IMG/VR virus record: IMGVR_UViG_3300047470_000133
Location: 1 to 38,516 of that record
From: a virus
Strand: one strand, 5' to 3'
DNA: 38,516 bases
The notes beneath the pieces were generated by a model that saw only the letters and a list, made by a program, of their open reading frames with translations, was not told the DNA's origin and ran no database searches. A program made the translations under genes and the position numbers. The stretch's first letter is position 1, and each line of letters opens with the position of its first letter. Shown here piece after piece: positions 4,302-38,516 of the stretch.

Positions 4302-4341
4302 GGTGACTCCCCTTGTTGCTGCCGTTGTGCTGACAGGTGGA

Positions 4342-4392
4342 ACGCTAAGGCACCGGAGGGGCCCGCACAACCCACATACTGAAAAGAGTAGG
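4342..4392 (-). promoter_or_regulatory. Promoter with abutting dyad operator (gene at 4301)
   Basis: On the minus strand the dyad CATACT-GAAAAG-AGTAGG (plus sense, 4375-4392) is followed by a -35 box TTGTGC (4365-4370), 17 bases, and a -10 box TAGCGT (4342-4347). The layout matches the five cassettes between 28.6 and 30.8 kb, though the downstream leader is more diverged. The outer arms pair imperfectly in this copy. Confidence 0.65.
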
Positions 4393-4417
4393 TACCCGGC
4401 CCGCCCCCGGAACGCAG

Positions 4418-4460
4418 AAAACCCCCCTTGACCTGCGCAGATGCACAAGCCAAGAGGGGT
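4418..4460 (-). terminator. Rho-independent terminator
   Basis: On the minus strand ACCCCTCTTG pairs with CAAGGGGGGT, with one G-T pair, and is followed by TTTTC. It lies just after the stop of the dNMP kinase and before the next promoter, so it ends the late/lysis transcript or the kinase transcript. Confidence 0.8.
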
Positions 4461-4469
4461 GAAAGATTT

Positions 4470-6432: not shown

Positions 6433-6452
6433 GAGTGTCCTTTCATGATGGA

Positions 6453-6496
6453 GCCCCGCCGGGCACCTACTCATTTCAGTAGGTCACCCGACGGGG
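6453..6496 (-). repeat. Dispersed dyad, copy 2, within a large hairpin
   Basis: The core CCTACT-CATTTC-AGTAGG (6466-6483) is nested in a longer stem in which GCCCCG.CCGG pairs with CCGG-type sequence on the far side (6453-6458 with 6491-6496). It lies between the tail-spike stop and the endolysin start. No promoter boxes follow it, and no T run, so it is either a roadblock-type operator or an RNA element. Confidence 0.65.
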
Positions 6497-6508
6497 CCGG
6501 GAAGGTGA

Positions 6509-14898: not shown

Positions 14899-14922
14899 GC
14901 ACCTACTGAAATGAGTAGGTGT
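14899..14922 (-). repeat. Dispersed dyad, copy 3
   Basis: The core CCTACT-GAAATG-AGTAGG (14902-14919) has 8 perfect pairs plus one G-T pair. It lies between the tail terminator stop and the tail-tube start. No promoter is visible beside it. Confidence 0.65.
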
Positions 14923-17142: not shown

Positions 17143-17178
17143 TGGTCAACCTCCTATGTTCAGTTGGGGCGGGGGCCA

Positions 17179-17196
17179 CCCACTCATTCCAGTAGG
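17179..17196 (-). repeat. Dispersed dyad, copy 4 (diverged)
   Basis: The core is CCCACT-CATTCC-AGTAGG, with changes in the left arm and the loop. The wider dyad, GGGCCACCCACT against AGTAGGTGACCC, keeps 10 of 12 pairs. It lies between the capsid stop and the small post-capsid gene. Confidence 0.55.
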
Positions 17197-17216
17197 TGAC
17201 CCACCGCAGCGAGCGA

Positions 17217-18035
17217 TTAAATGGACGTCCAGCTAACGACGGCAGTCGGGCGAACAACCTTCGCGCCGTAGACGTGCAGACCACGCAGACGGTCAGCGAA
17301 CTTGTCCGTAGCGCGGAGAGCCTCGGTCTTCTCAATCTGAGAGACATACGCGACGGCCGGACGGTAGAACCCGAGCACCTGAGGCTTAGCGGTAACCGGC
17401 AGGTTCTCCGAAGTGAAGATGTCGAACCCGAGCAGACGGCCTAGCGAAGCCTCGCGCAGACCCTGAGTGTCACCGGACACGTCAACGTTGGTCAGCTTGG
17501 ACGTAGCGCTAAGTAGCAGCGCCTCAAACTCAGCGTTGACAACTAGGACCCGGCTCGCACCAGGCACCTTGTTCTTCTGCATCGTCTTGCGAACGGAGCG
17601 GATTAGGTCAAACGCAGCGTTGCCATCGGCCAGCGTCGACGCAGTCAGCGCAGTACCGGCACCGGTCAGCGCCGTGGACAGGATGAACTTGTCTGCATCC
17701 TCGGCGAGACCCTCACCAGCGGAACGGGTGTAAGCGTCCATCGAGCCCGCAGCCTGCGCCCGGTCGATGTCATCAACATAGAAGTCAAACGACTTCTCCT
17801 GATCAATGAGCAGATCCTGAGACGTGGTCGAGACGGCAGACGCAGCGGTGACGCGGGACGCCGCCTTATAGTCCGTGATGGTGACAGCAGTAGCGGTATT
17901 GATCTTGACCGTGTTGCCAGCGGTCGCGTTGCCCTCGTACTCACGGTTAGTGAGGGAGGCAGCCACGGCCTGCTGTCGGAAGTCGGTTAGTAGAGACGCA
18001 TTCCAGATGGCCGGAATGAAAGAGGTAACTGCCAC
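17217..18035 (-). CDS. Major capsid protein
   Basis: The 272-residue protein starts at a GTG with GGAG 8 bases upstream. Its opening (TSFIPAIWNASLLTDFRQQAV), the NTVKINTATAVTITDY strand, the SFDFYVDDIDRAQA spine and the C-terminal AYVSQIEKTEALR/FADRLRGLHVYGAKVV are typical of HK97-fold, P22-gp5-like coats in actinophages. It follows the scaffold gene. It builds the icosahedral head. No separate N-terminal delta domain is seen, consistent with a separate scaffold. Confidence 0.93.
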   Translation of the reverse strand: MAVTSFIPAIWNASLLTDFRQQAVAASLTNREYEGNATAGNTVKINTATAVTITDYKAASRVTAASAVSTTSQDLLIDQEKSFDFYVDDIDRAQAAGSMDAYTRSAGEGLAEDADKFILSTALTGAGTALTASTLADGNAAFDLIRSVRKTMQKNKVPGASRVLVVNAEFEALLLSATSKLTNVDVSGDTQGLREASLGRLLGFDIFTSENLPVTAKPQVLGFYRPAVAYVSQIEKTEALRATDKFADRLRGLHVYGAKVVRPTAVVSWTSI

Positions 18036-19754: not shown

Positions 19755-21223
19755 CACATACTCATTTCAGTAGGTGCCTGCGGGGCGTGGGACATCAGCG
19801 CAGTAGCGGCTGCAATGGGATCTAGCTGCGCCTCCCGCTCCCGCATCTTGAGCATGTCGACGATCTCAGTAGGCGTTAGTCCGTACTTGAGCGCGATCCA
19901 CTCGAAGGGGAATCCGATTTGCTTGAGCTTGAGCAGCGCATCGGATAGCTGCGAATGGCTGCGCGACTCGGCGTCGGCCCAGAGAACGCGACCGCCAGCG
20001 ATAGCGTCCGCCTTAGCAGTGTCGCCCTGCGCAAGCGCAACCAGTCGGAACATCTCGCGTAGTGCCTGGCCGAACCAAATTTGCTTTTCTTCAACTCGCT
20101 TGACGAGACCCGTTTCGGCGGCCAGCAGCGCATCACCGCTGATGTTCGTCATTTTGCCGGAAAGGTAGTGCTGAGGCGTGCGCGTCTGTGCGGCAATGTG
20201 CCCCACCGCAACCTCAATGACGTTGCTGTATGCCTCAAGGTTCGCCGCTGTCCACTCGGTCACCTTCACGTCGTCACCGGTGAAGAACATCACTCGGTCA
20301 ACGGCAAAGCGCTCAAGGTCGACCGGGCGCGAACCAACAATCTGACCGTCGTTGCCGAGAATCGGAACTTCCGGAACCTCAGCGCCCAGCACGATTCGCT
20401 GCGGGAACGACGCGTAATCAGACGCAGTGAATAGCTGCGCCCACAAGAGGTTTACCGCATCCTGCATGGCGACCACACCGGACACATCCGAAATCGGATC
20501 CTCGGCGAGCATGGGCCGGTTGGGTAGCTCCACCATCGGCACCACGCCCATGGGGTTCTCCTGCGGGTTGGGCTCACCGCCTGTGTCGCGCAGGTCCCAA
20601 ACCTTCATCTCTTCATCAACCGCGCGCATTTCCGCCGTACGGTCGCCCGCCAGGCTGATAGTCGCCCGCCGGAACTTCCAAACCTCATGCGGGAGATACA
20701 GCGTCGCGTACGTCTCGTTACCGTCATCCCACAGCTTCAGTGCCGCACGCCTACGCCTACGGCTACCAGGCTCGTACGCAATGACGCACTGCGAAGCATC
20801 CTCAAAGGTGACTTCCGGCGTTGCCTCATCGTCCGGGTTACCCCACACGAGAACGAAGCTACGACCCGCATTCACGGCCCCAAGAAAGCCGAGCTGAGAG
20901 TCAGCGTCAAGGCCGTTCATCTGCCAGACACGCCACGACTCGTCATCCGCCTGGGTTGCGCCCGTAGGCTGAATGCCGTTTACCGTCAGGCGTTCAACCG
21001 GCGAATCTGACGTGACCTGTACCCAATTGTCGGCGAAGTCTCGGTAGCGGTCCCCGTGGAACTTGCGAAACTGTTCGGACGCGAACGCTAGCGTCTGCTC
21101 GCCCCGGTAATAGTCCGTGTTCCGCTGAATGGTCGGTCGCCGGTTCATCAACTCGCTTTCCAGCGCGCCGACTAGCGATAGAGCCTGCTCAAGGGTGGCC
21201 AAGGGTTCCTCTTCCCTGGCCAC
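19754..21223 (-). CDS. Portal protein
   Basis: The 489-residue protein has the SPP1-gp6-like order: LEQALSLVGALESELMNRRPTIQRNTDYYRGEQTL at the start, DNWVQVTSDSPVERL, a wing with PMVELPNRP, and the tunnel region with TPQHYLSGKMTN and AETGLVKRVEEKQ. The dodecameric ring is the DNA gate and nucleates head assembly. A GTG at 21221-21223 is chosen. A TTG two codons earlier overlaps the terminase stop and is nearly as likely. Its last codons are written by the dyad at 19757. Confidence 0.92.
   Translation of the reverse strand: MAREEEPLATLEQALSLVGALESELMNRRPTIQRNTDYYRGEQTLAFASEQFRKFHGDRYRDFADNWVQVTSDSPVERLTVNGIQPTGATQADDESWRVWQMNGLDADSQLGFLGAVNAGRSFVLVWGNPDDEATPEVTFEDASQCVIAYEPGSRRRRRAALKLWDDGNETYATLYLPHEVWKFRRATISLAGDRTAEMRAVDEEMKVWDLRDTGGEPNPQENPMGVVPMVELPNRPMLAEDPISDVSGVVAMQDAVNLLWAQLFTASDYASFPQRIVLGAEVPEVPILGNDGQIVGSRPVDLERFAVDRVMFFTGDDVKVTEWTAANLEAYSNVIEVAVGHIAAQTRTPQHYLSGKMTNISGDALLAAETGLVKRVEEKQIWFGQALREMFRLVALAQGDTAKADAIAGGRVLWADAESRSHSQLSDALLKLKQIGFPFEWIALKYGLTPTEIVDMLKMREREAQLDPIAAATALMSHAPQAPTEMSM
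19757..19774 (-). repeat. Dispersed dyad, copy 5, in the end of the portal gene
   Basis: CATACT-CATTTC-AGTAGG overlaps the last portal codons (Pro-Thr-Glu-Met-Ser-Met) and the start region of the MuF gene. It is the only one of the fourteen copies that lies in coding sequence. Its left arm has one change. Confidence 0.6.
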
Positions 21224-23821: not shown

Positions 23822-23839
23822 CCTACTCATTTCAGTATG
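23822..23839 (-). repeat. Dispersed dyad, copy 6
   Basis: CCTACT-CATTTC-AGTATG lies directly between the 3' end of tRNA-Pro and the HNH gene, and its minus-strand AGTAGGAG provides the HNH ribosome binding site. Pairing does not extend beyond the core. It might also help end or process the tRNA transcript. Confidence 0.65.
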
Positions 23840-23915
23840 TGCGGATAGCAGGATTCGAACCTGCGGCCTCTCCGTCCCAAACGGAGCGCTCTAGTCACAG
23901 CTGAGCTATATCCAC
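23840..23915 (-). tRNA. tRNA-Pro (UGG)
   Basis: A full cloverleaf: acceptor stem GTGGATA with TATCCGC (one G-T pair), D stem GCTC with GAGC, anticodon stem CTCCG with CGGAG and loop TTTGGGA, and T arm GCAGG-TTCGAAT-CCTGC. The loop gives anticodon UGG. CCA is not encoded. It reads CCA, a rare codon in a high-GC host. Confidence 0.95.
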
Positions 23916-28371: not shown

Positions 28372-28620
28372 TCAGGCGGCGTCTGCGGCCCTTGCGCACG
28401 TCTTGCACAGCTTCCGTCCACCGGTGATGCGAGCAGCCGCTACAGCCTCGGCCAGGGTCTCGAAGGACGCCCCGGTAGCCAGGCGGGACCGAGTCAGCGA
28501 GCCGCACACGTTCTGGGCCCAGTTGCTGACCACGGCGCCCGACTCATTGCCCCCGCCCGTGGTGCGCGCTTCCATGCCCGCGATGTGGTTCGTGGTCCGG
28601 TTGTACTTGATGGTGAACAT
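28372..28620 (-). CDS. Hypothetical 82-residue protein
   Basis: The protein opens FTIKYNRTTNHIAGMEART, has a SLTRSRLATGASFETLAEAVAAA helix and closes with LCKTCARA. The CKTC pair and a single earlier cysteine (NVCGSL) suggest a possible metal site. It starts at ATG after CAGGGGAGACACCAG. It has its own promoter-operator (28660-28710) and terminator, so it is a single-gene unit. No function is known. Confidence 0.65.
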   Translation of the reverse strand: MFTIKYNRTTNHIAGMEARTTGGGNESGAVVSNWAQNVCGSLTRSRLATGASFETLAEAVAAARITGGRKLCKTCARAADAA

Positions 28621-28659
28621 CTGGTGTCTCCCCTGGCTCGCTGCGTCCTTACGAGTGGA

Positions 28660-28710
28660 ACTCTACACACGGATCCGGGGCGCGCACAACCACCTACTGA
28701 AAAGAGTATG
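28660..28710 (-). promoter_or_regulatory. Promoter with abutting dyad operator (gene at 28620)
   Basis: -35 TTGTGC (28684-28689), 18 bases, -10 TAGAGT (28660-28665). The dyad core CCTACT-GAAAAG-AGTATG (28693-28710) ends three bases before the -35 box and pairs over 8 of 9 positions. The leader TCCACTCGTAAG follows as in the neighbouring cassettes. Confidence 0.8.
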
Positions 28711-28721
28711 TGGATCCGGGA

Positions 28722-28786
28722 CCAAAGATAGATGTAACGCCCATGCATTGAGCCCGAGACCAAAGATAGATGTATCGCCCACGCAT
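28722..28786. repeat. ATAGATGTA repeat, copies 2 and 3 in tandem
   Basis: Two copies (28722-28748 and 28760-28786) lie head to tail upstream of the dyad at 28693. Copy 3 differs from copy 2 by an A/T and a G/A change. They are 11 bases apart. Diverged copies also occur at 29174-29199 and 29815-29840 in the opposite orientation, each upstream of a promoter-operator cassette. Confidence 0.75.
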
Positions 28787-28810
28787 GGAACTAGTTCACA
28801 AGCCAGGGCA

Positions 28811-28837
28811 AAGGGAAAGGGCCCCCGGAGGGGCCCC
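28811..28837 (-). terminator. Rho-independent-type terminator
   Basis: On the minus strand GGGCCCC and GGGGCCC pair over 7 bases and are followed by TTTCCCTTT. It lies just after the stop of the 68-residue gene at 28849. Confidence 0.75.
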
Positions 28838-28848
28838 GTCCTTCCTGC

Positions 28849-29055
28849 TTACATCCCGGCCCAGTAGCCGGTACCCATCGCGCCCCATCCCCAGTTACGT
28901 CCGGTCTTGGTGTTCGCCGAGACGAGCATGTCCTCGTTGCTGCGGACCTTGTGGGTGCGGATCTCAGCGCCCGTGGCGTCGAACTCGCGAACCAGGGCCC
29001 ATCCCCCGGCACCCTGGGTCTTGACGGTGACTCGGGCGGTGGCGGTGGCGTTCAT
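28849..29055 (-). CDS. Hypothetical 68-residue protein
   Basis: The protein is a compact beta-rich sequence (TATARVTVKTQGAGGWALVREFDATGAEIRTHKVRSN) ending in an aromatic NWGWGAMGTGYWAGM tail. It has no cysteine or membrane segment. ATG follows CAGGGGAGAACGAA. It has its own promoter, operator and terminator. No family is recognised. Confidence 0.65.
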   Translation of the reverse strand: MNATATARVTVKTQGAGGWALVREFDATGAEIRTHKVRSNEDMLVSANTKTGRNWGWGAMGTGYWAGM

Positions 29056-29094
29056 TTCGTTCTCCCCTGCGTCGTTGTCGTGCTTACGAGTGGA

Positions 29095-29148
29095 ACTCTA
29101 CACACGGATCCAGGGTGCGCGCAACCACATACTGAAAAGAGTATGTGG
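29095..29148 (-). promoter_or_regulatory. Promoter with abutting dyad operator (gene at 29055)
   Basis: -35 TTGCGC (29119-29124), 18 bases, -10 TAGAGT (29095-29100). The dyad CCACATACT-GAAAAG-AGTATGTGG (29125-29148) is a perfect 9-bp inverse repeat and touches the -35 box directly. This is the cleanest cassette in the window. Confidence 0.85.
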
Positions 29149-29173
29149 GCTGGCTCACATCGCAGCGCGTGAC

Positions 29174-29199
29174 GTGCAGGGAACGTACATCTATCTTTA
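29174..29199. repeat. ATAGATGTA repeat, diverged copy 4
   Basis: GTACATCTATCTTTA on the plus strand matches the core of the repeat in opposite orientation to copies 1-3. It lies about 25 bases beyond the dyad of the 29055 gene. Confidence 0.55.
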
Positions 29200-29300
29200 C
29201 CCCTACCCGGAAGCTCTGTACGGCCGACTGAGAGCCTGCCAGCACTCCCCCGGGGTTGCCCGGCCAAGGCTCCCGCGTGAGGCTCTCAGACGGGCACCTA

Positions 29301-29328
29301 GGGGCCCCAGGGTCTCCCCCAGGGCCCC
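29301..29328 (-). terminator. GC-rich terminator hairpin
   Basis: GGGGCCC and GGGCCCC pair at the outer end, with inner GGG-CCC. The middle CCCCAGGGTCTCCCCC is shared exactly with the terminator at 30008-30031. It lies directly after the stop of the 122-residue gene. Confidence 0.65.
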
Positions 29329-29335
29329 CGACCGC

Positions 29336-29704
29336 CTAGCTCGCGGCGTAGAAGTACCGGCCGTAGGACGATCCGCCGATGTGAATGTTGATGTACTTCC
29401 GGCCCCCCTCGCCGGTCATCACGCTGACCGAAACCCCGTGCTTCTCAGCGTTCGCGATGGTGGCGCGCATCTGCTGAGCACTGCTGATCACGACCCGGTG
29501 ATCCGCCTTGCCGCGAGACTCGAACGTGTCCGTGTCCTGAACGATGTCCATGATGCCCTCTCCGTGAAAGGCGGTCCAGCACTTCGCCGCCGCCAGCGCC
29601 ATTGCCTCGGTCAGGTAGCCGGGGGTGCGGAACGCCTCGCGACCGTCCTGGAAAACGATGCCGTAGTGGTTGCCGTTCTTCGCGGTGATCGCGATGTTCG
29701 TCAT
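29336..29704 (-). CDS. Hypothetical 122-residue protein
   Basis: The sequence (NIAITAKNGNHYGIVFQDGREAFRTPGYLTEAMALAAAKCW, later HRVVISSAQQMRATIANAEKHGVSVSVM) suggests a small alpha/beta fold with a DUF-like phage pattern. The end is INIHIGGSSYGRYFYAAS. ATG follows GGGGAGCGGAC. It has its own promoter-operator and a terminator, so it is a separate unit. Function unknown. Confidence 0.7.
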   Translation of the reverse strand: MTNIAITAKNGNHYGIVFQDGREAFRTPGYLTEAMALAAAKCWTAFHGEGIMDIVQDTDTFESRGKADHRVVISSAQQMRATIANAEKHGVSVSVMTGEGGRKYINIHIGGSSYGRYFYAAS

Positions 29705-29741
29705 GTCCGCTCCCCTGCTTGCCGTTGTGCTTACGAGTGGA

Positions 29742-29792
29742 ACTCTATGCGCATCCGCACGCCCCGCGCAACCACCTACTGAAAAGAGTATG
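29742..29792 (-). promoter_or_regulatory. Promoter with abutting dyad operator (gene at 29704)
   Basis: -35 TTGCGC (29766-29771), 18 bases, -10 TAGAGT (29742-29747), then TCCACTCGTAAGCAC. The dyad core CCTACT-GAAAAG-AGTATG lies at 29775-29792, within a 9-position arm with one mismatch. Confidence 0.82.
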
Positions 29793-29814
29793 TGGACGAG
29801 ACTTCGGCGCGTAT

Positions 29815-29840
29815 ATGCATGGCCGTTACACCTTTATTTA
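29815..29840. repeat. ATAGATGTA repeat, diverged copy 5
   Basis: ATGCATGGCCGTTACACC followed by TTTATTTA on the plus strand is a diverged copy of the repeat, in the same orientation as copy 4. About 20 of 26 positions match. Confidence 0.5.
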
Positions 29841-29849
29841 CGCAAAGTA

Positions 29850-29895
29850 GCGGCCGGCATAACCCAGCGTCATAACACCAGGTCATACCGGCCGC
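29850..29895. repeat. Long inverted repeat
   Basis: GCGGCCGGCATAACC (29850-29864) and GGTCATACCGGCCGC (29881-29895) pair at 13 of 15 positions around a 16-base centre. There is no T run. It might be a weak terminator or a binding site. Confidence 0.55.
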
Positions 29896-30007
29896 GAGTC
29901 GGCACAGTGAGGGATGCAGGGAGGCGAAGAAACGCAGTTAACGGGAGAGCGAAGCCCCTGCGCGCCGCCTATCTGAGGCGAACCACCCTGCACCCTTCAC
30001 CGCGCCG

Positions 30008-30031
30008 GGCCCCAGGGTCTCCCCCGGGGCC
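30008..30031 (-). terminator. GC-rich terminator hairpin
   Basis: GGCCCC and GGGGCC form the outer stem. The inner sequence CCCCAGGGTCTCCCCC is the same as in the terminator at 29301-29328. It lies 12 bases after the stop of the 62-residue gene. Confidence 0.65.
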
Positions 30032-30042
30032 GTTGCGGTGCC

Positions 30043-30231
30043 CTACAGACCCTTTAGCGCGGCGTCGAGCCGGTCCCGCAGCTTCCGGGCGGTCTCTAGC
30101 GTCATGGACGCCAGATCACCATATTCGCCGCTGGTGTGAGTCGGGGCAGCCAGCCATACGAGGAATTTCTCATCTTCGAGCGGGGCAGGCTCGACGACAA
30201 CTGCCACGTCTTCCCAGAACTGCGCGATCAT
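30043..30231 (-). CDS. Hypothetical 62-residue protein
   Basis: ATG 30229-30231 follows AAGGGAAACGAA; the longer frame to 30294 would cross the promoter. The protein starts IAQFWEDVAVVVEPAPLEDEKFLVWLAAP and ends in a helix, ARKLRDRLDAALKGL. It has no recognised motif. It is a single-gene unit with its own promoter-operator and terminator. Confidence 0.65.
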   Translation of the reverse strand: MIAQFWEDVAVVVEPAPLEDEKFLVWLAAPTHTSGEYGDLASMTLETARKLRDRLDAALKGL

Positions 30232-30265
30232 TTCGTTTCCCTTCGCTGCGGTGCTTACGAGTGAG

Positions 30266-30324
30266 ACTCTATGGGCTGCGCCACCCACGCGCAAGCTACC
30301 TACTCATTTCAGTAGGTAGCTTGC
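30266..30324 (-). promoter_or_regulatory. Promoter overlapped by a perfect 14-bp dyad (gene at 30231)
   Basis: -35 TTGCGC (30289-30294), 17 bases, -10 TAGAGT (30266-30271). The dyad GCAAGCTACCTACT-CATTTC-AGTAGGTAGCTTGC (30291-30324) is perfect over 14 bp, and its outer arm covers part of the -35 box. A protein on the dyad would block the promoter. Confidence 0.85.
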
Positions 30325-30338
30325 GGCTCATGTCCGGC

Positions 30339-30677
30339 TCAGATTCCCCGGCGGGGCCGGTAGGCAATGTCAATGCTCCAACCCCGACCGAGCCACTCAA
30401 CCGTGAAGTTGGCGCCAACGTGCTTGTGTACCAGAGACTCAGCGACATCATCCGGCACCCAACGACCCTTAGGCACGTCCACGTACTCAACGATGCGAGT
30501 CGGGAACACGATGCCAGCCATGCGAACCGGCATGTACTTGCCCTTGGGGAGATCCTGGGGCTTCAGATCAGGGGTGATGGTGTGGCGCAGGCTCACGCGC
30601 TCCGTACCGTCCCCGTTGTCCGCGAGGGAGACCCGCAGCGTACCCATGATGCCGTCAATTTCCTCGTAAAACTGCAT
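30339..30677 (-). CDS. Hypothetical 112-residue protein
   Basis: ATG follows GAGGGGCAGCGAA. The beta-rich protein (GTLRVSLADNGDGTERVSLRHTITPD, GKYMPVRMAGIVFPTRIVEYVDVPKGRWVPDDVAE) ends in a basic RPRRGI. I recognise no family. It has its own promoter-operator and begins the series of small early genes after the dCMP deaminase. Confidence 0.7.
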   Translation of the reverse strand: MQFYEEIDGIMGTLRVSLADNGDGTERVSLRHTITPDLKPQDLPKGKYMPVRMAGIVFPTRIVEYVDVPKGRWVPDDVAESLVHKHVGANFTVEWLGRGWSIDIAYRPRRGI

Positions 30678-30718
30678 TTCGCTGCCCCTCGCTCCGCCGT
30701 GTCGTGCTTACGAGTCAG

Positions 30719-30774
30719 ACACTATGCGAGCGCCGGGCGCGGAAGCAACCCACCTACTCATTTCAGTATGTGGG
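30719..30774 (-). promoter_or_regulatory. Promoter with abutting dyad operator (gene at 30677)
   Basis: -35 TTGCTT (30743-30748), 18 bases, -10 TAGTGT (30719-30724), then CTGACTCGTAAGCAC. The dyad CCCACCTACT-CATTTC-AGTATGTGGG (30749-30774) pairs at 9 of 10 positions and touches the -35 box. Confidence 0.8.
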
Positions 30775-31161
30775 CTAGGCCACAACTACCCGCTTGATGC
30801 CTGCCGCAGTGATCAGCGTCGAGCACGCCGGGCAAGGCTTGCGGGTTACGTACAGCGTCGCCCCCGGCAGCTCCGCAGGGTCCGCATGCTCAATCGCGTT
30901 GCGTTCAGCGTGAGTTGCCGCGCAGTTGGCGTAGTCGCTGTCTCGCGCGCACTCGGCTACGTCCAGCCTTCCCCGTGGACAGTTACCGGCGGTAGCGCAA
31001 CCGGGGATCCCGGGTAGCAGGCCGTTGTAACCGACGCTGCGTACCCGGTTCCGGTCGTTCACGAGCACTGCCCCAACCTGTGCCCGTGTGCAGTCGGCAC
31101 GAGTGGCAACCACAGCGGCTAGCGCGAGTCCCCACTCATCCCAGCTAGGGCGATCGCTCAC
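30775..31161 (-). CDS. dCMP deaminase
   Basis: The 128-residue protein has the zinc-dependent deaminase signature: HAERNAI with H84 and catalytic E86, and PCPAC with C110 and C113. Earlier cysteines (C55, C61 and nearby) may hold a second, structural zinc as in phage enzymes of this family. It converts dCMP to dUMP, the substrate of ThyX, encoded just upstream in the same operon. It begins at a GTG overlapping the thioredoxin stop (GTGA). Confidence 0.93.
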   Translation of the reverse strand: MSDRPSWDEWGLALAAVVATRADCTRAQVGAVLVNDRNRVRSVGYNGLLPGIPGCATAGNCPRGRLDVAECARDSDYANCAATHAERNAIEHADPAELPGATLYVTRKPCPACSTLITAAGIKRVVVA

Positions 31162-31394
31162 GCACCCACCAGGGCCCGTATCTGCGCCTCAGTGGCCCCG
31201 CCCCGATGCTCGCGCACCACCTGCCCGTACTCGTCGTACACGCGGATTGTGGGAACCGCCCGGATGTCGAGCGCGCGGCTATCGCCAGTCTCTACGTCGA
31301 CGTACTCGCCAGCCTCCCCGGTCACGCGCTGAAAGTGCGGGTAAGTCGTCTTGCAGGGGGCACACCAGGACGCCCCAAAGAACACCGGCTTCAC
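31158..31394 (-). CDS. Thioredoxin/glutaredoxin-like protein
   Basis: The 78-residue protein has the redox site WCAPC (residues 10-14), the helix after it, and a cis-proline loop AVPTIRVYDEYG. It is shorter than host thioredoxin, as usual for phage forms. It probably supplies electrons for a reductase, or helps a polymerase, but no ribonucleotide reductase is in this window. It begins at a GTG overlapping the stop of the tiny gene before it. Confidence 0.88.
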   Translation of the reverse strand: MKPVFFGASWCAPCKTTYPHFQRVTGEAGEYVDVETGDSRALDIRAVPTIRVYDEYGQVVREHRGGATEAQIRALVGA

Positions 31395-31474
31395 TCGTCA
31401 TCCTCGCTGTCGTTGATGCATCGTCCGCCCCCGCAGTACAGGCACGCGTCGTCGTCCTCAGTCCAGCCGATCAA
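31391..31474 (-). CDS. Tiny 27-residue zinc-knuckle peptide
   Basis: This frame starts at a TTG overlapping the lipoprotein stop as TTGA and ends overlapping the thioredoxin start as GTGA. AGGGAGGG lies 4 bases before it. It encodes a single CLYCGGGRC knuckle between acidic ends (WTEDDD and DSEDDE). Chaining by overlap on both sides is good evidence that it is translated. Function unknown; it may be a metal-binding accessory to the redox protein next to it. Confidence 0.65.
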   Translation of the reverse strand: MIGWTEDDDACLYCGGGRCINDSEDDE

Positions 31475-31668
31475 CTGCCCTCCCTCTCCGCGTACTTGAC
31501 GCAGGTCGTAACGATGGACGTTCCGGAAACCAACTTGCCGTTAACGATGGTGGTGTGCGGGATAACCTGCGTCGTGTAGTCCAGACACTCCGGGCCTGAC
31601 TCGCATGCGCTGAGGCCAAGAACGACGGCCCCGGTTAGGACCATGGCGCCGAGGATTCGGCCGGTCAC
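31471..31668 (-). CDS. Small lipoprotein
   Basis: The 65-residue protein has a short hydrophobic signal ([15 protein letters not shown]) ending in the lipobox LSAC at about residue 19-22, so Cys22 is probably lipidated and the rest faces outward. A second cysteine pair follows (C28, C56). It begins at a GTG overlapping the ThyX stop. Phage lipoproteins of this size can block a second infection, though nothing shows that here. Confidence 0.8.
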
Positions 31669-32366
31669 TTGTCATCACTTCCATACGGCGTAGCCGGAAC
31701 ATCCTGGAAAGAGTTGGGGGCAAGGATCCTCAGGTAGTCGAGCGTCAGCCCCGCATACTCGCGAATCTCGGCGTCAGCGGCGACGTGCCAGCGCTTGCCG
31801 AGGACGTCTCGCCATGCCCGCAGGTTGCCGGTAACCACCATGTCGACCGGGGCAGCATTCGGCAGCACGCTTCGCGCAGCTTCGCGAGCCTGCTTGCGCT
31901 TGAGGCCACGGGCCGTCAGATCCTCAACGAGTGATTCATAGATGCGCACGCTGCCCGCGTAGGCGTTGACGATGGCAGTTTCCGCCGGGGTGCCTTCAGC
32001 GGCAGGCGGTATGACCGGGGCCGTGTCGGCGTATGACACGTAGCGCTGGCTCACTACCGAGAAACTCAGGTGTCGGTGCCGCGAGAGTTCAGCGAGCAGC
32101 GCCCGGGACACCCCCTGCACTAGGAAGCTCACGGACGCATGCTCAAGCACGCTGTAGTGACCCTGGGCGAGGATGTTGGCCATGTACCCGGCGTTCTCCG
32201 CCGTGGCCGGATTGGGGCGAGCGAAACTCTTGTAACAGAGCCGACCGGCCGACTCCCCCAGCGCATCCGAGTCGCGAACCTCCTGATCTCCGATCGCGTC
32301 GTACCCGTAAGCGTCGATCATCACGTGTTCACGCATGATGGTGTGTGCCAGAACATCAACCCGCAT
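31665..32366 (-). CDS. thyX: Flavin-dependent thymidylate synthase ThyX
   Basis: The 233-residue protein starts at the ATG at 32364-32366 after AGGAGAGAGCCC, the AGTAGGAG being part of the dyad. The ThyX signature RHR-x7-S lies at residues 96-106 ([14 protein letters not shown]). [13 protein letters not shown] is the usual segment before it. It makes dTMP from dUMP with folate and FAD. Its substrate comes from the dCMP deaminase downstream. The operon continues with the lipoprotein, tiny peptide and thioredoxin by overlapping stop-start pairs. Confidence 0.94.
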
Positions 32367-32375
32367 GGGCTCTCT

Positions 32376-32393
32376 CCTACTGAAATGAGTACG
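32376..32393 (-). repeat. Dispersed dyad, copy 12
   Basis: CCTACT-GAAATG-AGTACG lies between the 64-residue gene and thyX, and its left arm supplies part of the thyX ribosome binding site. No promoter is possible in the few bases between it and the start. Confidence 0.65.
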
Positions 32394-32397
32394 TGGG

Positions 32398-32592
32398 CTA
32401 GACGTAGGTTTCGCCAGCCAGGAAGCTAGCGAGTTGCAGAACATCGAACGGCTCGGCGTTCCACTCGTTCTCGTCGTCGTCGAGCAGCTTCCGAGCAACC
32501 TTCCATGCATCCACGCGGTCGGCCATGTCCTCGGCCTTTCGCTGGGCAACGCCGGTCAGCGTCGGTGGCTTGAATGCGGGCTCAGCGGCCAC
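32398..32592 (-). CDS. Hypothetical 64-residue protein
   Basis: It starts at a GTG that overlaps the end of the previous gene by 11 bases, with GGGGGG-TAACT before it. The protein is helical and acidic ([26 protein letters not shown]), ending [16 protein letters not shown]. It has no known family. Position in the thyX operon is the only clue to its role. Confidence 0.65.
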
Positions 32593-32752
32593 AGTTACCC
32601 CCCAGGGTGCGGAGCAGCGGAACGGCCTCGGTGAACGAGTGGGTCACGCTGCTGATGACTTCACCGGCGGCATTCGCGGTGACGAACTCAATGTTGTTGC
32701 CGACGCGCCGAGTGGTGACGATGTGGCCGGTGCGAAGCTGGAACGTGTTCAC
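32582..32752 (-). CDS. Hypothetical 56-residue protein
   Basis: GTG 32750-32752 follows GGGGAGACACC; an upstream ATG frame runs into copy 4 of the 19-bp motif. The sequence (NTFQLRTGHIVTTRRVGNNIEFVTANAAGEVISSVTHSF) is beta-rich and resembles small phage proteins of the same kind as that at 28849. No domain is recognised. It is the first gene of the thyX operon downstream of the HNH gene. Confidence 0.65.
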   Translation of the reverse strand: MNTFQLRTGHIVTTRRVGNNIEFVTANAAGEVISSVTHSFTEAVPLLRTLGGNCGR

Positions 32753-32791
32753 GGTGTCTCCCCGGGGGTTCGTGCTGCTCTTGGTGACAGT

Positions 32792-32810
32792 GGATCGCAA
32801 GGGTTTCCCG
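32792..32810 (-). promoter_or_regulatory. 19-bp motif, copy 4
   Basis: CGGGAAACCCTTGCGATCC (minus sense) directly abuts the stop codon of the HNH gene (32811) and lies about 40 bases before the 56-residue gene. It is identical to copy 3 and one base different from copy 5 on the other side of the HNH gene. Confidence 0.55.
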
Positions 32811-33092
32811 CTAGAAGGTTGCGGCCCACTCAGCGAGGCTCTTAGCGCCCTTGCTCAGGTTGCAGGGAGCGCAGGCAGGCAACAGGTTGTGCGCTGCGTC
32901 CGCTCCCCCACGGCTAATGGGCACCACGTGGTCTAGATGCTCGGCCGGGTCTCCGCAGTAGGCGCAGGATCCGCCGTAGGCAGCGAAGATGTCTGCGCGC
33001 CGGTAGGTCACCCGGGCCCGTCTGCGTCCCCTGCACCGCATGCAGTAGCCGCGTACTGCCTTGACTCGTCCGCAGGCACCGCATGTCTTCAT
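32811..33092 (-). CDS. HNH endonuclease, bracketed by the 19-bp motif
   Basis: The ATG at 33090-33092 gives 93 residues; an earlier start would translate the 19-bp motif and is rejected. The N-terminal half is a zinc ribbon (CGACGRVKAVRGYCMRC) and the second an HNH core with CAYCG, HLDHVVPISRGG and NLLPACAPCNLSK, holding all catalytic histidines and the asparagine. It has no strong ribosome binding site. It interrupts the line between the sigma-like gene and the thyX operon and has the motif on both sides, which suggests it could be a mobile, homing-type gene. Confidence 0.87.
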   Translation of the reverse strand: MKTCGACGRVKAVRGYCMRCRGRRRARVTYRRADIFAAYGGSCAYCGDPAEHLDHVVPISRGGADAAHNLLPACAPCNLSKGAKSLAEWAATF

Positions 33093-33101
33093 ACCGGGGC
33101 T

Positions 33102-33120
33102 GGATAGCAAGGGTTTCCCG
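33102..33120 (-). promoter_or_regulatory. 19-bp motif, copy 5
   Basis: CGGGAAACCCTTGCTATCC (minus sense) lies 9 bases before the HNH start. It is the upstream partner of copy 4. Confidence 0.55.
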
Positions 33121-33127
33121 GCACGCG

Positions 33128-33158
33128 AAAGGGCCCCCAGGATCATCCCTAGGGGCCC
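33128..33158 (-). terminator. Terminator after the sigma-like gene
   Basis: GGGCCCC and GGGGGCCC pair around an AGGGATGATCCT centre that also pairs partly, and the minus strand continues TTTCGCG. It ends the sigma-like transcript 20 bases after its stop. Confidence 0.7.
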
Positions 33159-33177
33159 AACTCACCGCAGACGCAGG

Positions 33178-34002
33178 CTAGATCGCGTACGCCTCGCTGT
33201 AGAGCGCCGCAAAGCGCGTCTTGCCCTTGCTCCGCACCACCTTCACGCGGTCGCGCTGGATGCCGTAGTCAGCCGACAGTTCATCATCAAAATCAATGCC
33301 GTACTCGGCAACCGGCTCGATACCGGTCAGCGCCATAAGCACCGTGCGCTGCTGCTCGCCCATCTTGTTGAGGGTGGCGTGAACCTGCGCCGTGGTCTGC
33401 TTGCGCGCGGCCTGGTTGTAGTCCGCAGGGGTCAGCATGTCTTCCGGGACTCCGATGGTGCTGGCGATGTTCGCGCCGACCGTGGTGGGCTCGCTGTCGT
33501 CGCTGCCACCGGCCGGTGCGTCCAAGTAGTCAAGGCCCTGGTACGAGAGCCGGGCGGCGTAGGCCAGATCAGCGGACAGGGTGCGGAACTTCCCGCCCAT
33601 GACGTCGGCATCCTGCACGATCTGCTCAGCGATGTAGGCATCACCCTTGGCGATGGACACGGCAGCCTCAAAACGCTGGGCGGTTGCCAGTGCCACACCC
33701 GGGCGAGTCTCGACCTTACGGGCGCTGGAAATGACCCCCGTCACCGTGGTGTCAACGAACGTGAAGAACTGGGCCACGCTGTCCCCCTTGAAGTTGGGGA
33801 GAGAGGTCCAGATCGCCGTGCGCCCTTCCTGCGCCAGATCCTCGGCAAGCGTGTGGTTGACGCGTCCGCTGGACGTTGCAGCACGCCGGGCAAGGTAGAC
33901 AACGCGCTCATCAAACTCGGTCAGGATGTGGGCGAGAGCCGAGGCCGACTCGATGTCGCTGCCCATGGCCGTACGAATCTGCTCGATGGTGACGTTGATC
34001 AT
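33178..34002 (-). CDS. Sigma-factor-like protein
   Basis: The ATG at 34000-34002 follows GGAGGGGAACCCC. Residues about 30-80 (FDERVVYLARRAA...AEDLAQEGRTAIWTSLPNFKGDSVAQFFTFVDTTVTGVI) resemble sigma-70 region 2.1-2.2, which binds the core polymerase. The C-terminal third (MGEQQRTVLMALTGIE, then DDELSADYGIQRDRVKVVRSKGKTRFAALY) has the shape of region 4, a helix-turn-helix that reads -35 DNA. A clear region 2.4 is not visible. It may direct transcription of later genes, perhaps from the 148-bp regions or 19-bp motifs. It could instead be an anti-sigma or other polymerase-binding protein. Confidence 0.6.
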   Translation of the reverse strand: MINVTIEQIRTAMGSDIESASALAHILTEFDERVVYLARRAATSSGRVNHTLAEDLAQEGRTAIWTSLPNFKGDSVAQFFTFVDTTVTGVISSARKVETRPGVALATAQRFEAAVSIAKGDAYIAEQIVQDADVMGGKFRTLSADLAYAARLSYQGLDYLDAPAGGSDDSEPTTVGANIASTIGVPEDMLTPADYNQAARKQTTAQVHATLNKMGEQQRTVLMALTGIEPVAEYGIDFDDELSADYGIQRDRVKVVRSKGKTRFAALYSEAYAI

Positions 34003-34041
34003 TTTGGGGTTCCCCTCCGGTTTGCTGCGGTGATGTGCTGG

Positions 34042-34070
34042 AACGTATGCGGGGCCACTGGCATATGCAA
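34042..34070 (-). promoter_or_regulatory. Promoter for the sigma-like gene
   Basis: -35 TTGCAT (34065-34070), 17 bases, -10 TACGTT (34042-34047), followed by CCAGCACATCACC. It is like the cassette promoters, but no dyad touches it; the nearest (34271-34288) is 200 bases upstream. Confidence 0.55.
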
Positions 34071-34270
34071 CTGGCGTTTCGCTGGGAGAGACCCAGGCCA
34101 CGGGGACAAGGTTGTGACGATTTCGAAGGCGTAACGGGGTCTCATCCCTAGGATTGATAGGTAAGACCATTCGGTAACGGCGGGGTAACCAGGCATTTGC
34201 AAGGCGCAACGCTGGTCACCCCGTCAGGTACTAATCGGCATAGGACTTGCCACGTGTGACCCACCCGACA

Positions 34271-34288
34271 CCTACTCTTTTCAGTAGG
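34271..34288 (-). repeat. Dispersed dyad, copy 13
   Basis: CCTACT-CTTTTC-AGTAGG pairs over 8 bases and lies 12 bases after the DNA polymerase stop (34300). It is upstream of the sigma-like gene's promoter but separated from it. Between 34071 and 34270 I see no gene. Confidence 0.65.
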
Positions 34289-34299
34289 TGAACGCAGAG

Positions 34300-36150
34300 T
34301 TAGACGTCAGCTCCGTAGAGTGAGCCCCACGAGCGCTTACCAATCTCCGCCTCGGCCTCAATGGGCACGCCGAAAAGATCGAACGTCATGCATCGCTCAA
34401 TCTCGCGTGCGTAGTCCTCCGCCTCAGCGGCCGGGACACTGGCAAGCACCTCGTCATGGATCGGCAGGCGCATCGTGTCGAGCAATCCAGCCTCTTCGAT
34501 GTTGAGCAGCGATTGCCCCAGCACGTCACGCGCGGCACTCTGCACGGCGTAGTTGATGACGGCATACGTGCGCGAGCGATCCAGGGGCAGACGCCGACCC
34601 GTGACCGACACGTGAACCATGCCGGTCTCGTACGCCTCGCGCTGCCAACGGTTGGACATGCGCTTGATTTCCGGGTAGGCCCGGTGGAACGCCCCTAGCG
34701 CCGCCTCAAGCTCCGCCCGGGGTGCACCGGTCTGCCGCTCAAGCGCTGCCAGTCCCCCGCCGTAGACGGTTCCGAATGCCATCTTCTTAGCGTTCTCACG
34801 CTGGTTTTTCGTGAAGTTGGGCCCGTAGACCATGGACGCCGTGAACGCGTGTAGGTCGGCGCCCTGTGCGATCGCCTTTTTCATGTTCTTCACGTCGCCA
34901 AGGGCAGCGAGCACGCGCAACTCGACGGCCTTAAAGTCGGTCGACACCATGACGTGACCGGGTTCGGCCAAGAGTGCCCGGCGGATCATCTGATCACGGC
35001 TCGGGAGCGTCTGAAGCGCAGGCCGCGTGATGGACATGCGTCCCGTCCGCGCACGCATTGAGTTGATGAAGCAGTGCACCCGGCCGTCAGCGTCGACCGT
35101 CTCAAGGAACGTGTCAGCGTACGAGGAACGCCACTTACCGGCGCGCTTGCTCTTGAGGATCGCCTCGGCAAGCGGGTTAGGCGTGCGGGATCCCAGGGGC
35201 TCGCCCGATGCAAAGTCCAGATCGGCGAGCCGGTGAAGCACTGCCTTATCGACCTTGACGTTACCGCTGGCCGTGGTCTCGCTGAGGGTCTCCCCCATAC
35301 CGGCCAGTGCCTCAGCGATCTGCCGGGGCGCGTTCACGTTGGCCACCCCGTACCGAGCGGCTACGCCGGTGAACTCAAGCTCATCATGCATGAGTTGGGA
35401 CTGAAGCTGCCGCGTGTAGTCGACATCGAGCACCAGGCCGCGACGCTGCATGATCGCGCAGATACGGGCTATCTCGTGCTCGTACTGCACCAGCTTGTTA
35501 GACACGCTGAGCATGTCCAGCTCTCGGCGGAGTGCCGGTTCCAGCCGGGCAGTCAGGATGACGTCAAGACCCGCGTACAGGTTGTAGGTGGGGTGGTCGA
35601 GCGGGATCCCGGCCCACCCGGTTTCCTTGGTCAGTTTGAGGGACCGGAACACCGCTGTCAGGTCCCCTTGGGTGTCCGGCGCGGACGGGTCCACGTACCA
35701 GGCACACAGAGGCTTGAGGGCGGTCCCCCGTCCACCTTCCTGCGGCTGCCGGGGATCGATCAGGCCAGCGAGTAGGCGCGTGTCCGTAGTGCGCGGGGCA
35801 AGGCTCTCGATGCTCTCCCGCGTGTGCCGGTCGAGCACGCACCAATCGAACGGGGCGTTGTGAATCAGGAACCGGTTCACGTAGTCCAGCGCGCGTTCCC
35901 CGTAGTGGACGAACTCGCCGCCCCGCTCCCAGTGGATTACCCACCCGGTCCGTGCGTCGCCGAACTGCACCGTGCGCAGACGGTAGGTGTCGCTGTAGAT
36001 GTCGAGACCAGTTGTCTCCGTGTCCAGCGCGATCGGGCCCCGGTTGTTCGCGTCGACAATCCAGCGCTTGAACTCGTTGAGATCCTCGCGAGTCTCCGGA
36101 ACCTTCACGGTGACGTCTTGTCCGGCAACCTGGTACGGGTAGATGCGCAC
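34300..36150 (-). CDS. Family A DNA polymerase with 3'-5' exonuclease
   Basis: I place the start at the GTG at 36148-36150, five bases after AGAGGGG; an ATG at 36165 would bury that site. The 616-residue protein has exonuclease motifs ALDTETTGL (about 41-49), LIHNAPFDW and YAGLDVILTARL, so proofreading looks intact. Polymerase motif A is STDFKAVELRVLA, B is KKMAFGTVYGGG and C is LPIHDEV with the metal-binding Asp. Motif A has FKAV in place of the usual YSQI. It copies the phage genome, next to the primase/helicase. Confidence 0.95.
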   Translation of the reverse strand: MRIYPYQVAGQDVTVKVPETREDLNEFKRWIVDANNRGPIALDTETTGLDIYSDTYRLRTVQFGDARTGWVIHWERGGEFVHYGERALDYVNRFLIHNAPFDWCVLDRHTRESIESLAPRTTDTRLLAGLIDPRQPQEGGRGTALKPLCAWYVDPSAPDTQGDLTAVFRSLKLTKETGWAGIPLDHPTYNLYAGLDVILTARLEPALRRELDMLSVSNKLVQYEHEIARICAIMQRRGLVLDVDYTRQLQSQLMHDELEFTGVAARYGVANVNAPRQIAEALAGMGETLSETTASGNVKVDKAVLHRLADLDFASGEPLGSRTPNPLAEAILKSKRAGKWRSSYADTFLETVDADGRVHCFINSMRARTGRMSITRPALQTLPSRDQMIRRALLAEPGHVMVSTDFKAVELRVLAALGDVKNMKKAIAQGADLHAFTASMVYGPNFTKNQRENAKKMAFGTVYGGGLAALERQTGAPRAELEAALGAFHRAYPEIKRMSNRWQREAYETGMVHVSVTGRRLPLDRSRTYAVINYAVQSAARDVLGQSLLNIEEAGLLDTMRLPIHDEVLASVPAAEAEDYAREIERCMTFDLFGVPIEAEAEIGKRSWGSLYGADV

Positions 36151-36169
36151 GTGCGCCCCTCTCATGCGA

Positions 36170-36203
36170 ACGGGTCACCTACTCATTTCAGTAGGCGACC
36201 CGT
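36170..36203 (-). repeat. Dispersed dyad, copy 14, with 14-bp arms
   Basis: ACGGGTCACCTACT-CATTTC-AGTAGGCGACCCGT pairs at 13 of 14 positions. It lies between the primase/helicase stop and the polymerase start, with no promoter. The outer arm differs from that at 30291 but is equally complementary. Confidence 0.7.
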
Positions 36204-36232
36204 GCTCCGGTATGTGCGCTTGCACGCTTGTG

Positions 36233-38516
36233 TCAGTCCTGGGCGAAGATGCCCGGACCCGTTGCCTTCACTTCGGTACCAGCGACTCGAACGCCCACCA
36301 GGGCCATGCCCTTAGCGACCCGCACGCGCTGAATGCCGCGCTCTTCCATCGCGGAATAGAACAGCTTTCGCGACCACACTTCTTTGGTCTGTAGCCCCTC
36401 GGCCTCGCACCATTCGCGGTAAGCGTTGTATGCGTCAGCGCCGTTGATGCGCGCCGTGTCGTCCGCCTCAAGCACGCCCGGGAAGAAACCGGCCAGCGTG
36501 TCCGACGTGGCTTTGTATTCGTCCGTGGCAGCGCTGATGTACTCCGGATCCTGCAAGCCGTTGGCGAACCAGGCCACCGCACCGCGAACACACCAGGCCG
36601 CAATGCCCTCCGCCTCGCCGAGTAGCTTTCGGTCAAGGTTGTGATCTCGCTCGCCGGGGGCAAAGAACCGCTTGAACGGCACCATCTTGACGCGGCGCCA
36701 AAGGCCGTCATCCTGGCCGCGAAACTTGGGCTTGTGGTTGGTCGCCAGCATGAGAAGGAACGTCGGGCGGAACGTGAAGAACTCTTGACGCAAGAATCGG
36801 GCCGCAATCTCATCCTTGCCGGTGACCCGTTTCAGTACGGCCTCAGACATCGGGCGCCCCGACTCCCCCTCAGACGCCATGACGAGACGAGAACCGCGCA
36901 GCGCTGCAAGGTCGTTGGGGATGCCGCCGCTGGCCTTATCCTCGAACGTCGCAAAGGGGGTCGTGGTGCTGATCGTCCGGAACACCGCCGTCAGCGTGTC
37001 TGTCAGGACTGATTTGCCGTTCGCGCCCTTGCCCCACAGCACGCAGAAACACTGTTCGTCCGTGTAGCCGGTGATTCCGTAACCAAGCATGCGTTGCATG
37101 TACGGGACCATCTCGGGCATGTCCGGGAAGATCTCGACCATGAACGATTCCCAGCGAGGCGCGGGGGCATCGGCCCGGAAGTTGATGTCCAGCGCGTACG
37201 TCATCATGTCCCGCTTGTCATGCGGGCGGAGCTTGCCGGTTCGGAGTTCCACCGTGCCGTTACGGAAGCTCAGCAGGTCCGGTGCGGCATCAAACTTGGC
37301 AGCTTCCACATAGACGCTCGGGACGGAGCGCAGTTCAGTCATCAGCGCGTCAATGCGCGTCGTCATGAGGAACGGCTTTGCCTGGTCGAGCTTCCCGGCG
37401 AGGGTCAGCGCGGCGCCCATGCGGTGGATCTCTTGGCGTACCAGGGTGCCCGACCCGTCGCGCTGCCAGACACGGCCGTCCCACACGTAGTAGCCGAGCC
37501 CGGGGGCAAACTTGATACGGCCGTCGGTCCACGCCACCAGGGCATGCGCGTTCATCGCGTCAGACTCGCCGTAGCGCTCGATAAGGCCAGCGATCACGCG
37601 GGCAGCCTCGGTGCCCTGGTCACGGCTCACCACATCGGCGCCGGTTGCCTCGCTGAGTTCCGCCGATACGGTGGCTGCCTCGGCCTCGGCATGCATCTTG
37701 ACGGGCATAGCTGCCTTGACAGCGCGGTGAAGAGCAGCGGCAAACTCGGACGGGTCACGCTCGCGCCAGTCCGTAAGGTCATCCCCGGCGTTCGGAATGG
37801 CCAGCGTGTATACGTCGATTCCGTGCTCTGCCAGACCCTCAGCGAGCCGACGGCTGAACGTCTGCCCCGCCGTGTCGTTGTCGCCAGCCACGATTACCTG
37901 AGTGCCCCGCAGGCCGTCGGCAAGCTCCGCGATCAACTCCGGGGAGGACGCCAGCGAGGCACCCCGGACAGCGACAGCGTCATATCCGACCGCAACCGCT
38001 GTGAGGCCGTCTCCGGGCCCCTCAGTTATGAGCGTGACTCCGTATCCGGCCTCTCCCCGAAACACGCCGTAGGGGGTCCAGCGCTGCCCCTGGGGGTTGC
38101 TCAGCGACAGCCACCGTCCGGGGCACTGCCCGGAAAGGTCGCGACCCTGGGCACCACGGGTGACGCCGTCGAATCCGTTCAGCGGCACCACCATGCGCGG
38201 GAACCGGCCGAATGACGACGAGATAAACGAGGGTCCATCGGCGGACGGTGCGGCCCATCGCAGGCCGATTCGCTCGGCGGCATCCTTGGTGATCCCAAAC
38301 CGTTCCTCGGCGTACGACCCGTCCCCCACCGGAAGCGAGTCCAGCCACATGCGCAGGGTTGCTATCGCCCCGATGCTGACAAGCTGCGGACGTTCCTTGG
38401 GCACGGTTACGGCGTCGCCTTCCACGTTGAACAGATCAGGCCAGCGGAGCCCCGCAGCCTTAACGATGTCGTCGTTCTTGCACATGGCCCGGCAGGCAAG
38501 CCGAACCTTGTGGTCA
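36233..38516 (-). CDS. TOPRIM primase / SF3 (D5-like) helicase, 5' end cut by the window
   Basis: The frame is open to the edge, and the residues before the first ATG (HKVRLACRAMCKNDDIVKAAGLRWPDLFN) are the end of a primase zinc ribbon, so the true start lies outside. The TOPRIM domain has ITEGPGDGLTA and VAGDNDTAGQ, which carry the catalytic Glu and Asp-x-Asp. The C-terminal half has WGKGANGKSVL (Walker A), LVMASEGESG (Walker B) and LLMLATNHKP (sensor), the SF3/D5 helicase set. It primes and unwinds DNA at the replication fork. It ends 83 bases before the polymerase. Confidence 0.95.
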   Translation of the reverse strand, partial: DHKVRLACRAMCKNDDIVKAAGLRWPDLFNVEGDAVTVPKERPQLVSIGAIATLRMWLDSLPVGDGSYAEERFGITKDAAERIGLRWAAPSADGPSFISSSFGRFPRMVVPLNGFDGVTRGAQGRDLSGQCPGRWLSLSNPQGQRWTPYGVFRGEAGYGVTLITEGPGDGLTAVAVGYDAVAVRGASLASSPELIAELADGLRGTQVIVAGDNDTAGQTFSRRLAEGLAEHGIDVYTLAIPNAGDDLTDWRERDPSEFAAALHRAVKAAMPVKMHAEAEAATVSAELSEATGADVVSRDQGTEAARVIAGLIERYGESDAMNAHALVAWTDGRIKFAPGLGYYVWDGRVWQRDGSGTLVRQEIHRMGAALTLAGKLDQAKPFLMTTRIDALMTELRSVPSVYVEAAKFDAAPDLLSFRNGTVELRTGKLRPHDKRDMMTYALDINFRADAPAPRWESFMVEIFPDMPEMVPYMQRMLGYGITGYTDEQCFCVLWGKGANGKSVLTDTLTAVFRTISTTTPFATFEDKASGGIPNDLAALRGSRLVMASEGESGRPMSEAVLKRVTGKDEIAARFLRQEFFTFRPTFLLMLATNHKPKFRGQDDGLWRRVKMVPFKRFFAPGERDHNLDRKLLGEAEGIAAWCVRGAVAWFANGLQDPEYISAATDEYKATSDTLAGFFPGVLEADDTARINGADAYNAYREWCEAEGLQTKEVWSRKLFYSAMEERGIQRVRVAKGMALVGVRVAGTEVKATGPGIFAQD

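Follow-up and report, generated by a model that had tools for sequence, protein, structure and literature searches.

The window, that is, the whole stretch of DNA analysed here, is a virus record of 38,516 bases whose main genes all lie on the minus strand. Because its DNA polymerase shares 60% identity with phiC31 gp11 and about 70% with the Rowa protein, the window is, judged from these matches, a contig of a phiC31-family Streptomyces phage. The recognisable genes are those for primase, a sigma factor, ThyX, dCMP deaminase, the major capsid protein, a protease, a tail spike, an endolysin and a serine integrase. The sigma factor is a phage-encoded RNA polymerase subunit (33178-34209; PHROG 15865) that is annotated in Rowa too, and late or middle promoters could be set by this protein. 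A search of the window against Rfam returned three tRNAs only and none of the operator hairpins described below. The features on which the analysis turns are collected in Table 1.

Table 1. Genes, operator cores and predicted RNA hairpins of the window
Feature	Coordinates	Strand	Remarks
c-type immunity repressor gene	3036-4301	-	ORF 3036-4448, likely ATG 4301; PF25746 Phage_Repressor_c, E=2.3e-57
Operator core TACTCTTTTCAGTA	4377-4390	-	just upstream of repressor promoter TTGTGC-N17-TAGCGT
RNA hairpin, core 6468-6481	6452-6498	-	one bulged base; -39.9 kcal/mol, z -6.85
Tail spike gene	6509-8137	-	
Operator core, no outer stem	14904-14917	-	4 nt past tail terminator gene stop
RNA hairpin, imperfect core TACTGGAATGAGTG 17181-17194	17169-17207	-	-31.1 kcal/mol, z -4.76
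Major capsid gene	17217-18035	-	PHROG 267
Operator core, no outer stem	19759-19772	-	overlaps portal gene 3' end / protease start
Operator core, no outer stem	23824-23837	-	between tRNA-Pro and HNH endonuclease gene
tRNA-Pro gene	23839-23915		one of three phage tRNA genes
Operator core	28695-28708	-	abuts -35 of early promoter TTGTGC ... TAGAGT
Operator core	29130-29143	-	abuts -35 of early promoter TTGCGC ... TAGAGT (29095-29100)
Operator core	29777-29790	-	abuts -35 of early promoter TTGCGC ... TAGAGT (29742-29747)
RNA hairpin, core 30301-30314	30290-30325	-	-32.7 kcal/mol, z -8.27
Operator core	30755-30768	-	abuts -35 of early promoter TTGCTT ... TAGTGT
Operator core, no outer stem	32378-32391	-	between short ORF (stop 32398) and ThyX gene
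Operator core, weak stem only	34273-34286	-	13 nt past DNA polymerase stop
DNA polymerase gene	34300-36165	-	60% identity to phiC31 gp11
RNA hairpin, apex core 36180-36193	36166-36205	-	-28.4 kcal/mol, z -6.55; orthologous in 24 phages

The window contains 14 copies of an asymmetric 14-bp core, TACTGAAWWGAGTA, 13 of them exact and one, at 17181, imperfect (TACTGGAATGAGTG). The exact copies fit TACTGAA[A/T][A/T]GAGTA in either orientation and lie almost all in intergenic gaps. The register of the core is the same as that of TACTCACGTGAGTA, which is present 15 times in phiC31 and whose copies are the published CIR repressor sites. The repressor gene was matched by tblastn to phiC31 c and to the Rowa repressor, and its product is 76, 59 and 44% identical to the repressors of phages carrying the window core and 38-40% identical to those of phages carrying TACTGAATTCAGTA, the next class; repressor similarity, in other words, ranks with operator class. 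The window thus holds a multicopy intergenic inverted repeat, a c-type repressor gene and a copy of the repeat at the repressor's own promoter, the core at 4377 standing about 75 nt from the ATG at 4301. Six operators, the one at the repressor gene included, abut the -35 element of promoters of the form TTGnnn-N17/18-TAGnGT. The dyads are, by prediction, CIR-type operators bound by the phage's own c repressor. The core is best read as a predicted protein site because the cores match CIRs, a matching repressor gene is present and promoters adjoin operators, and also because a C-C or G-G mismatch invariably occupies the pair position immediately inside the dyad arms, and stem selection alone would not conserve such a pair. 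The flanks are mostly the palindromic consensus CACC-core-GGTG.

The core differs from one group of relatives to the next, mostly as variants of a common TAC...GTA plan. About 12 operator sequences were found across the family (G004-G030, phiC31, TG1, Heather etc.), each in about 10-18 copies per genome and tracking repressor similarity; entire regulons seem to have been repeatedly rewritten within this phage family. Perfect palindromes make up most of the family's other operator classes. The window class (all 13 exact sites, e.g. 30301-30314, and relatives L081-L091) joins two unlike half-sites, TACTGAA and TACTC[AT][AT], each of which resembles a half-site of another class (TACTGAATTCAGTA, TACTCAATTGAGTA), an odd arrangement for a homodimeric repressor.

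Several details of the sites are worth recording in their own right. The operator at 19759-19772, unlike the others, falls inside coding sequence; another abuts the 3' end of tRNA-Pro (23824-23915), and that at 30755-30768 stands 6 nt past the dCMP deaminase stop. The early promoters at 29080-29100, 29727-29747 and 30251-30271, together with those near 28695 and 30755, carry a conserved ACTCGTAAGCAC at about the transcript start, and the related GTAAGCACGAAC was found in the distant relative L119. Upstream of early promoters stand copies of GACCAAAGATAGATGTA[AT]CGCCCA[TC]GCAT, two direct and one inverted (TACATCTATCTTTA), in 28724-28790 and 29180-29205; such repeats are possibly sites for another regulator or for the phage sigma factor. 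At about 4425-4461, directly before the repressor operator and promoter, lies an 18-pair hairpin without an operator and with a TTTTCTGCG tail, which by its appearance is an ordinary terminator and offers a useful comparison.

An earlier note on this DNA had proposed that the dyads are under selection for a stem as well as for a protein site, since their outer arms differ from site to site and remain complementary. When 53-nt sense segments were folded and scored as z against dinucleotide shuffles, this held at four of the 14 dyads and not for dyads generally, the other ten giving z of +0.1 to -3.7 and no long outer stem. The arms GCAAGCTA/TAGCTTGC at 30291 are present and form 11 uninterrupted Watson-Crick pairs outside the 14-bp core, as are the arms ACGGGTC/GACCCGT at 36170, where one mismatch between arms and core is A-C on the plus strand and G-U on the transcribed minus strand. 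Of the five arms cited, three are not evidence in the way that was claimed: CCA/TGG at 29125 and CCC/GGG at 30749 are both the operator consensus CACC/GGTG rather than compensation, and the arm at 17171 does belong to a longer stem (z -4.8) that takes a different route, GGG-U-CACC / GGTG-G-CCC on the sense strand. At both 36180 and 17181, the one mismatch that adjoins the core reads G-U on the transcribed strand. The fourth stem, at 6452-6498, lay outside the range considered in that note and was overlooked there; it contains a one-base bulge and is therefore missed by an ungapped search, is the most stable of the window dyads, and is kept in the relatives G002, G030 and G031 with a U-G/U-A exchange. 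It follows the tail spike gene, while the hairpin at 17169-17207 follows the major capsid gene, that at 30290-30325 lies 24 nt past the stop of the ORF 30339-30677, and that at 36166-36205 is placed between the primase stop codon (36233) and the DNA polymerase gene.

Taken alone, the window gave a modest signal. Between 1 and 4 positions from the core, complementarity was 44 against 42.9 under a flank-swap null (p=0.37), and compensation was rejected at these distances, CCA/TGG and CCC/GGG included; at distances 5-8 it was 25 against 16.6 expected under the same null (p=0.012), and summed runs gave p=0.16. Compensation cannot be demonstrated by comparing different sites of one genome; orthologous sites are required.

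In 36 phages with 374 sites between them, Watson-Crick pairing 6-11 positions outside the core exceeded flank shuffles with z of 3.3-5.2, the excess being significant singly in phiC31, TG1, G014, G024 and Euratis, which represent independent operator classes, and at one cut-off a long stem was found at 104 of 381 sites against 48 expected; these sites share ancestry, and the shuffle counts here and below are not equivalent to probabilities. At the primase-polymerase junction, a stem occupies the corresponding position in almost all relatives, and the operator at its tip is the one belonging to each phage. When 24 distinct junction sequences with many operator cores were aligned without gaps, the outermost six pairs were 99.3% paired, all six showed two-sided changes, and such changes occupied 38 cells against 7.8 in shuffles, a value that none of 500 shuffles matched. 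In every slid register, pairing fell to 34-68%. The arms seen there include CGGGTC/GACCCG, GGGGTC/GGCCCC, TGAGCC/GGCTCA, CGGGCC/GGCCCG and GGAAGG/CCTTCC. The stem centres were chosen by maximum pairing and were unchanged under strand-symmetric scoring in all informative phages. BT1, Euratis, Shawty, Samora, Lilbooboo and Dubu are omitted from this comparison, since a search of the 150 nt preceding their polymerase gene found no operator stem. The post-capsid junction behaves alike: 17 sequences were 94.1% paired and again none of 500 shuffles matched. In G002 and G031 the post-capsid stem has no operator in it, and the stem therefore has a role of its own; the capsid allele of these two phages is divergent (about 31% identity), which makes their case one of synteny rather than strict orthology. 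Covariation beyond the core among orthologous sites, whose absence the earlier note had named as refuting its idea, is thus strong at two junctions, so that the idea survives, and the alignments argue that the outer stem is under selection at both.

Whether the stem acts as RNA or as a DNA cruciform had been left open, and the mismatches bear on the choice. Symmetry in DNA would give equal numbers of A-C and G-T mismatches on the sense strand. The outer junction pairs contain 14 G-U and one A-C, and deduplicated single-mismatch contexts gave 36 G-U and no A-C, while random pairing at the composition of the sites would give roughly 48:38 G-U:A-C per position. An initial count of 100 G-U to 9 A-C was set aside since its selection favoured G-U. 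Flank shuffles within a phage also favour G-U (18.4 against 3.7 A-C); they form a weak null because the U-G positions are themselves conserved. Sense folds were better than antisense folds at 255 sites and worse at 125 (p=1e-11). Because mismatches on the transcribed strand are G-U and almost never A-C, the selected stem is RNA, and a cruciform is disfavoured. Whether hairpin sites favor one orientation of the asymmetric core was also considered; a link seemed plausible on inspection and was not significant with the outer-pair cut-off (13:12 against 7:6, p=1).

The positions and tails of the stems resemble those of terminators. Among strong-stem sites, 81% lie at most 60 nt downstream of an ORF stop, against 51% of other sites (p=1e-7), and the median distance from the stop is 24 nt, which leaves room for an arm, against 7 nt. 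The 8-nt tail contains on average 3.06 T after operator stems, 3.20 after operator-free gene-end hairpins and 2.05 after other stems, and the enrichment is directional, with at least four T after the stem in a fraction of 0.38 and at least four A before it in 0.09. Of the orthologous or paralogous stems that relatives carry, a minority have a U tract directly 3' of the stem. In the window, a stable GC-rich sense hairpin stands just past a stop codon at 6468, 17181, 30301 and 36180, as in an intrinsic terminator; as the earlier note had observed, no T run follows any window dyad on the sense strand, and a U tract is absent from the tails of all four stems (UCGCAUGA, CGUGGGUG, CCGCCCCA, CCAUCAUG). 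A simple terminator scan of 28500-38516 picked up no dyad, and a simple sigma-70 scan recovered none of these elements. Terminators without U tracts are on record for Streptomyces and phiC31, according to work cited in PMC8355165.

The same hairpins might instead serve mRNA processing or 3'-end stability in polycistronic messages, with the operator nested in them and no terminator involved. The window stems do come after stop codons and without a U tract, and that at 36180 stands between two genes that both need expression, with no promoter visible between the stem and the polymerase gene, so that a strong terminator would silence the latter. We nevertheless regard this explanation, a form of which had been raised before, as unlikely: the tails across the family equal those of operator-free gene-end hairpins and show their T enrichment chiefly 3' of the stem, clear T5-T7 tracts occur at phiC31 34783 (GGGGCTTTTT) and G015 13725 (CCCCTCTTTTTTT), and gene-end position together with terminator-like tails fits termination better.

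That the outer arms merely extend a DNA operator, through extra half-site contacts or a cruciform and with no role in RNA, is improbable. The core is a predicted repressor site and the inner CACC/GGTG is a palindromic consensus at most sites, but at orthologous sites the outer arms vary freely and yet stay paired, DNA symmetry cannot explain the excess of G-U over A-C on the transcribed strand, and 10 of the 14 operators have no such arms. There is likewise very little likelihood that the hairpins control translation by hiding the ribosome-binding site of the downstream gene, as the suggestion of blocked ribosome access would have it. The arrangement at 6452-6498, where the 3' arm carries GGCGGGG about 10 nt before an AUG, would suit it, but the fit is poor at most sites: at 36180 and its orthologues a Shine-Dalgarno-like AGGGGAG-type stretch lies 3' of the stem, and at 30301 the next gene is predicted to be transcribed from a start downstream of the stem, which its own mRNA would therefore lack. 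Chance complementarity in GC-rich flanks, to which the modest p values of the window alone might point, can practically be dismissed in view of the family-wide and orthologous tests and z-scores of -4.8 to -8.3 against dinucleotide shuffles, and is refuted at 36180 and 17181.

We therefore favor, as the probable explanation, that CIR operators are nested in U-poor intrinsic terminators. The sequence analysis shows the operators as a family, the presence of the repressor gene, RNA-level selection on the stem, gene-end position and the terminator-like tails of the family, while repressor binding, termination and the alternation of the two readings are what we infer. The operator would, at 36180, 30301, 17181 and 6468, top a longer hairpin of the sense transcript a short way past a stop codon, with the outer arms forming the lower stem. 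The hairpin would most likely be a U-poor intrinsic terminator giving a weak transcription stop, probably a partial one at 36180, where the polymerase gene still needs transcription. At 30301, the 3' arm includes TTGC of the next promoter's -35 element, as placed by promoter alignment, so a putative terminator, an operator and a promoter share one 60-bp segment. In a lysogen, repressor on the core would halt RNA polymerase before it has transcribed the 3' arm, like the roadblock of a stoperator; in lytic growth, free DNA would be transcribed and the hairpin might act instead, weakening or ending transcription. Roadblock and hairpin would then be alternatives rather than partners, because bound repressor would stop the polymerase before the 3' arm. 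It is possible, and we put it forward only tentatively, that one palindrome has two readers in this way, the repressor reading it as DNA and RNA polymerase as the tip of a terminator hairpin, with occupancy switching which of them acts.

If this is true, keeping the hairpin would constrain how the operator can change when a phage gains a new repressor specificity. The family offers a natural experiment in which the operator of one junction has been rewritten many times while the surrounding hairpin was kept. The phiC31-family phages are the source of core tools of Streptomyces genetics; both the fusion of a repressor site with a terminator and termination without a U tract are directly testable in this family.

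The closest known system is that of the CIRs and c repressor of phiC31 (Lomovskayavirus C31, AJ006589), with which the window shares the TACT..AGTA half-site framework in the same register, about 15 mostly intergenic copies, a homologous repressor and an operator by the repressor's own promoter. In contrast to TACTCACGTGAGTA, from which it differs in sequence, the window core TACTGAAWWGAGTA is asymmetric, and the aligned part of the two repressors shows only about 31% identity. The terminators described in the phiC31 family (1995, NAR 23:370, as cited in PMC8355165) are likewise U-poor hairpins at gene ends, while a subset of those in the window has a repressor operator at the apex. In the stoperator systems of mycobacteriophage cluster A (PMC9283540) and Streptomyces phage R4 (PMC10276819), many repressor sites are also distributed over the genome, most of them outside promoters in intergenic gaps. 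The cluster A repressors, according to PMC9283540, recognise an asymmetric sequence, and cluster A stoperators are asymmetric sites in one orientation; the sites of the window differ from those of the stoperator systems in being inverted repeats with a near-palindromic core, in occurring in both orientations relative to transcription, and in lying, in some cases, within predicted RNA hairpins.
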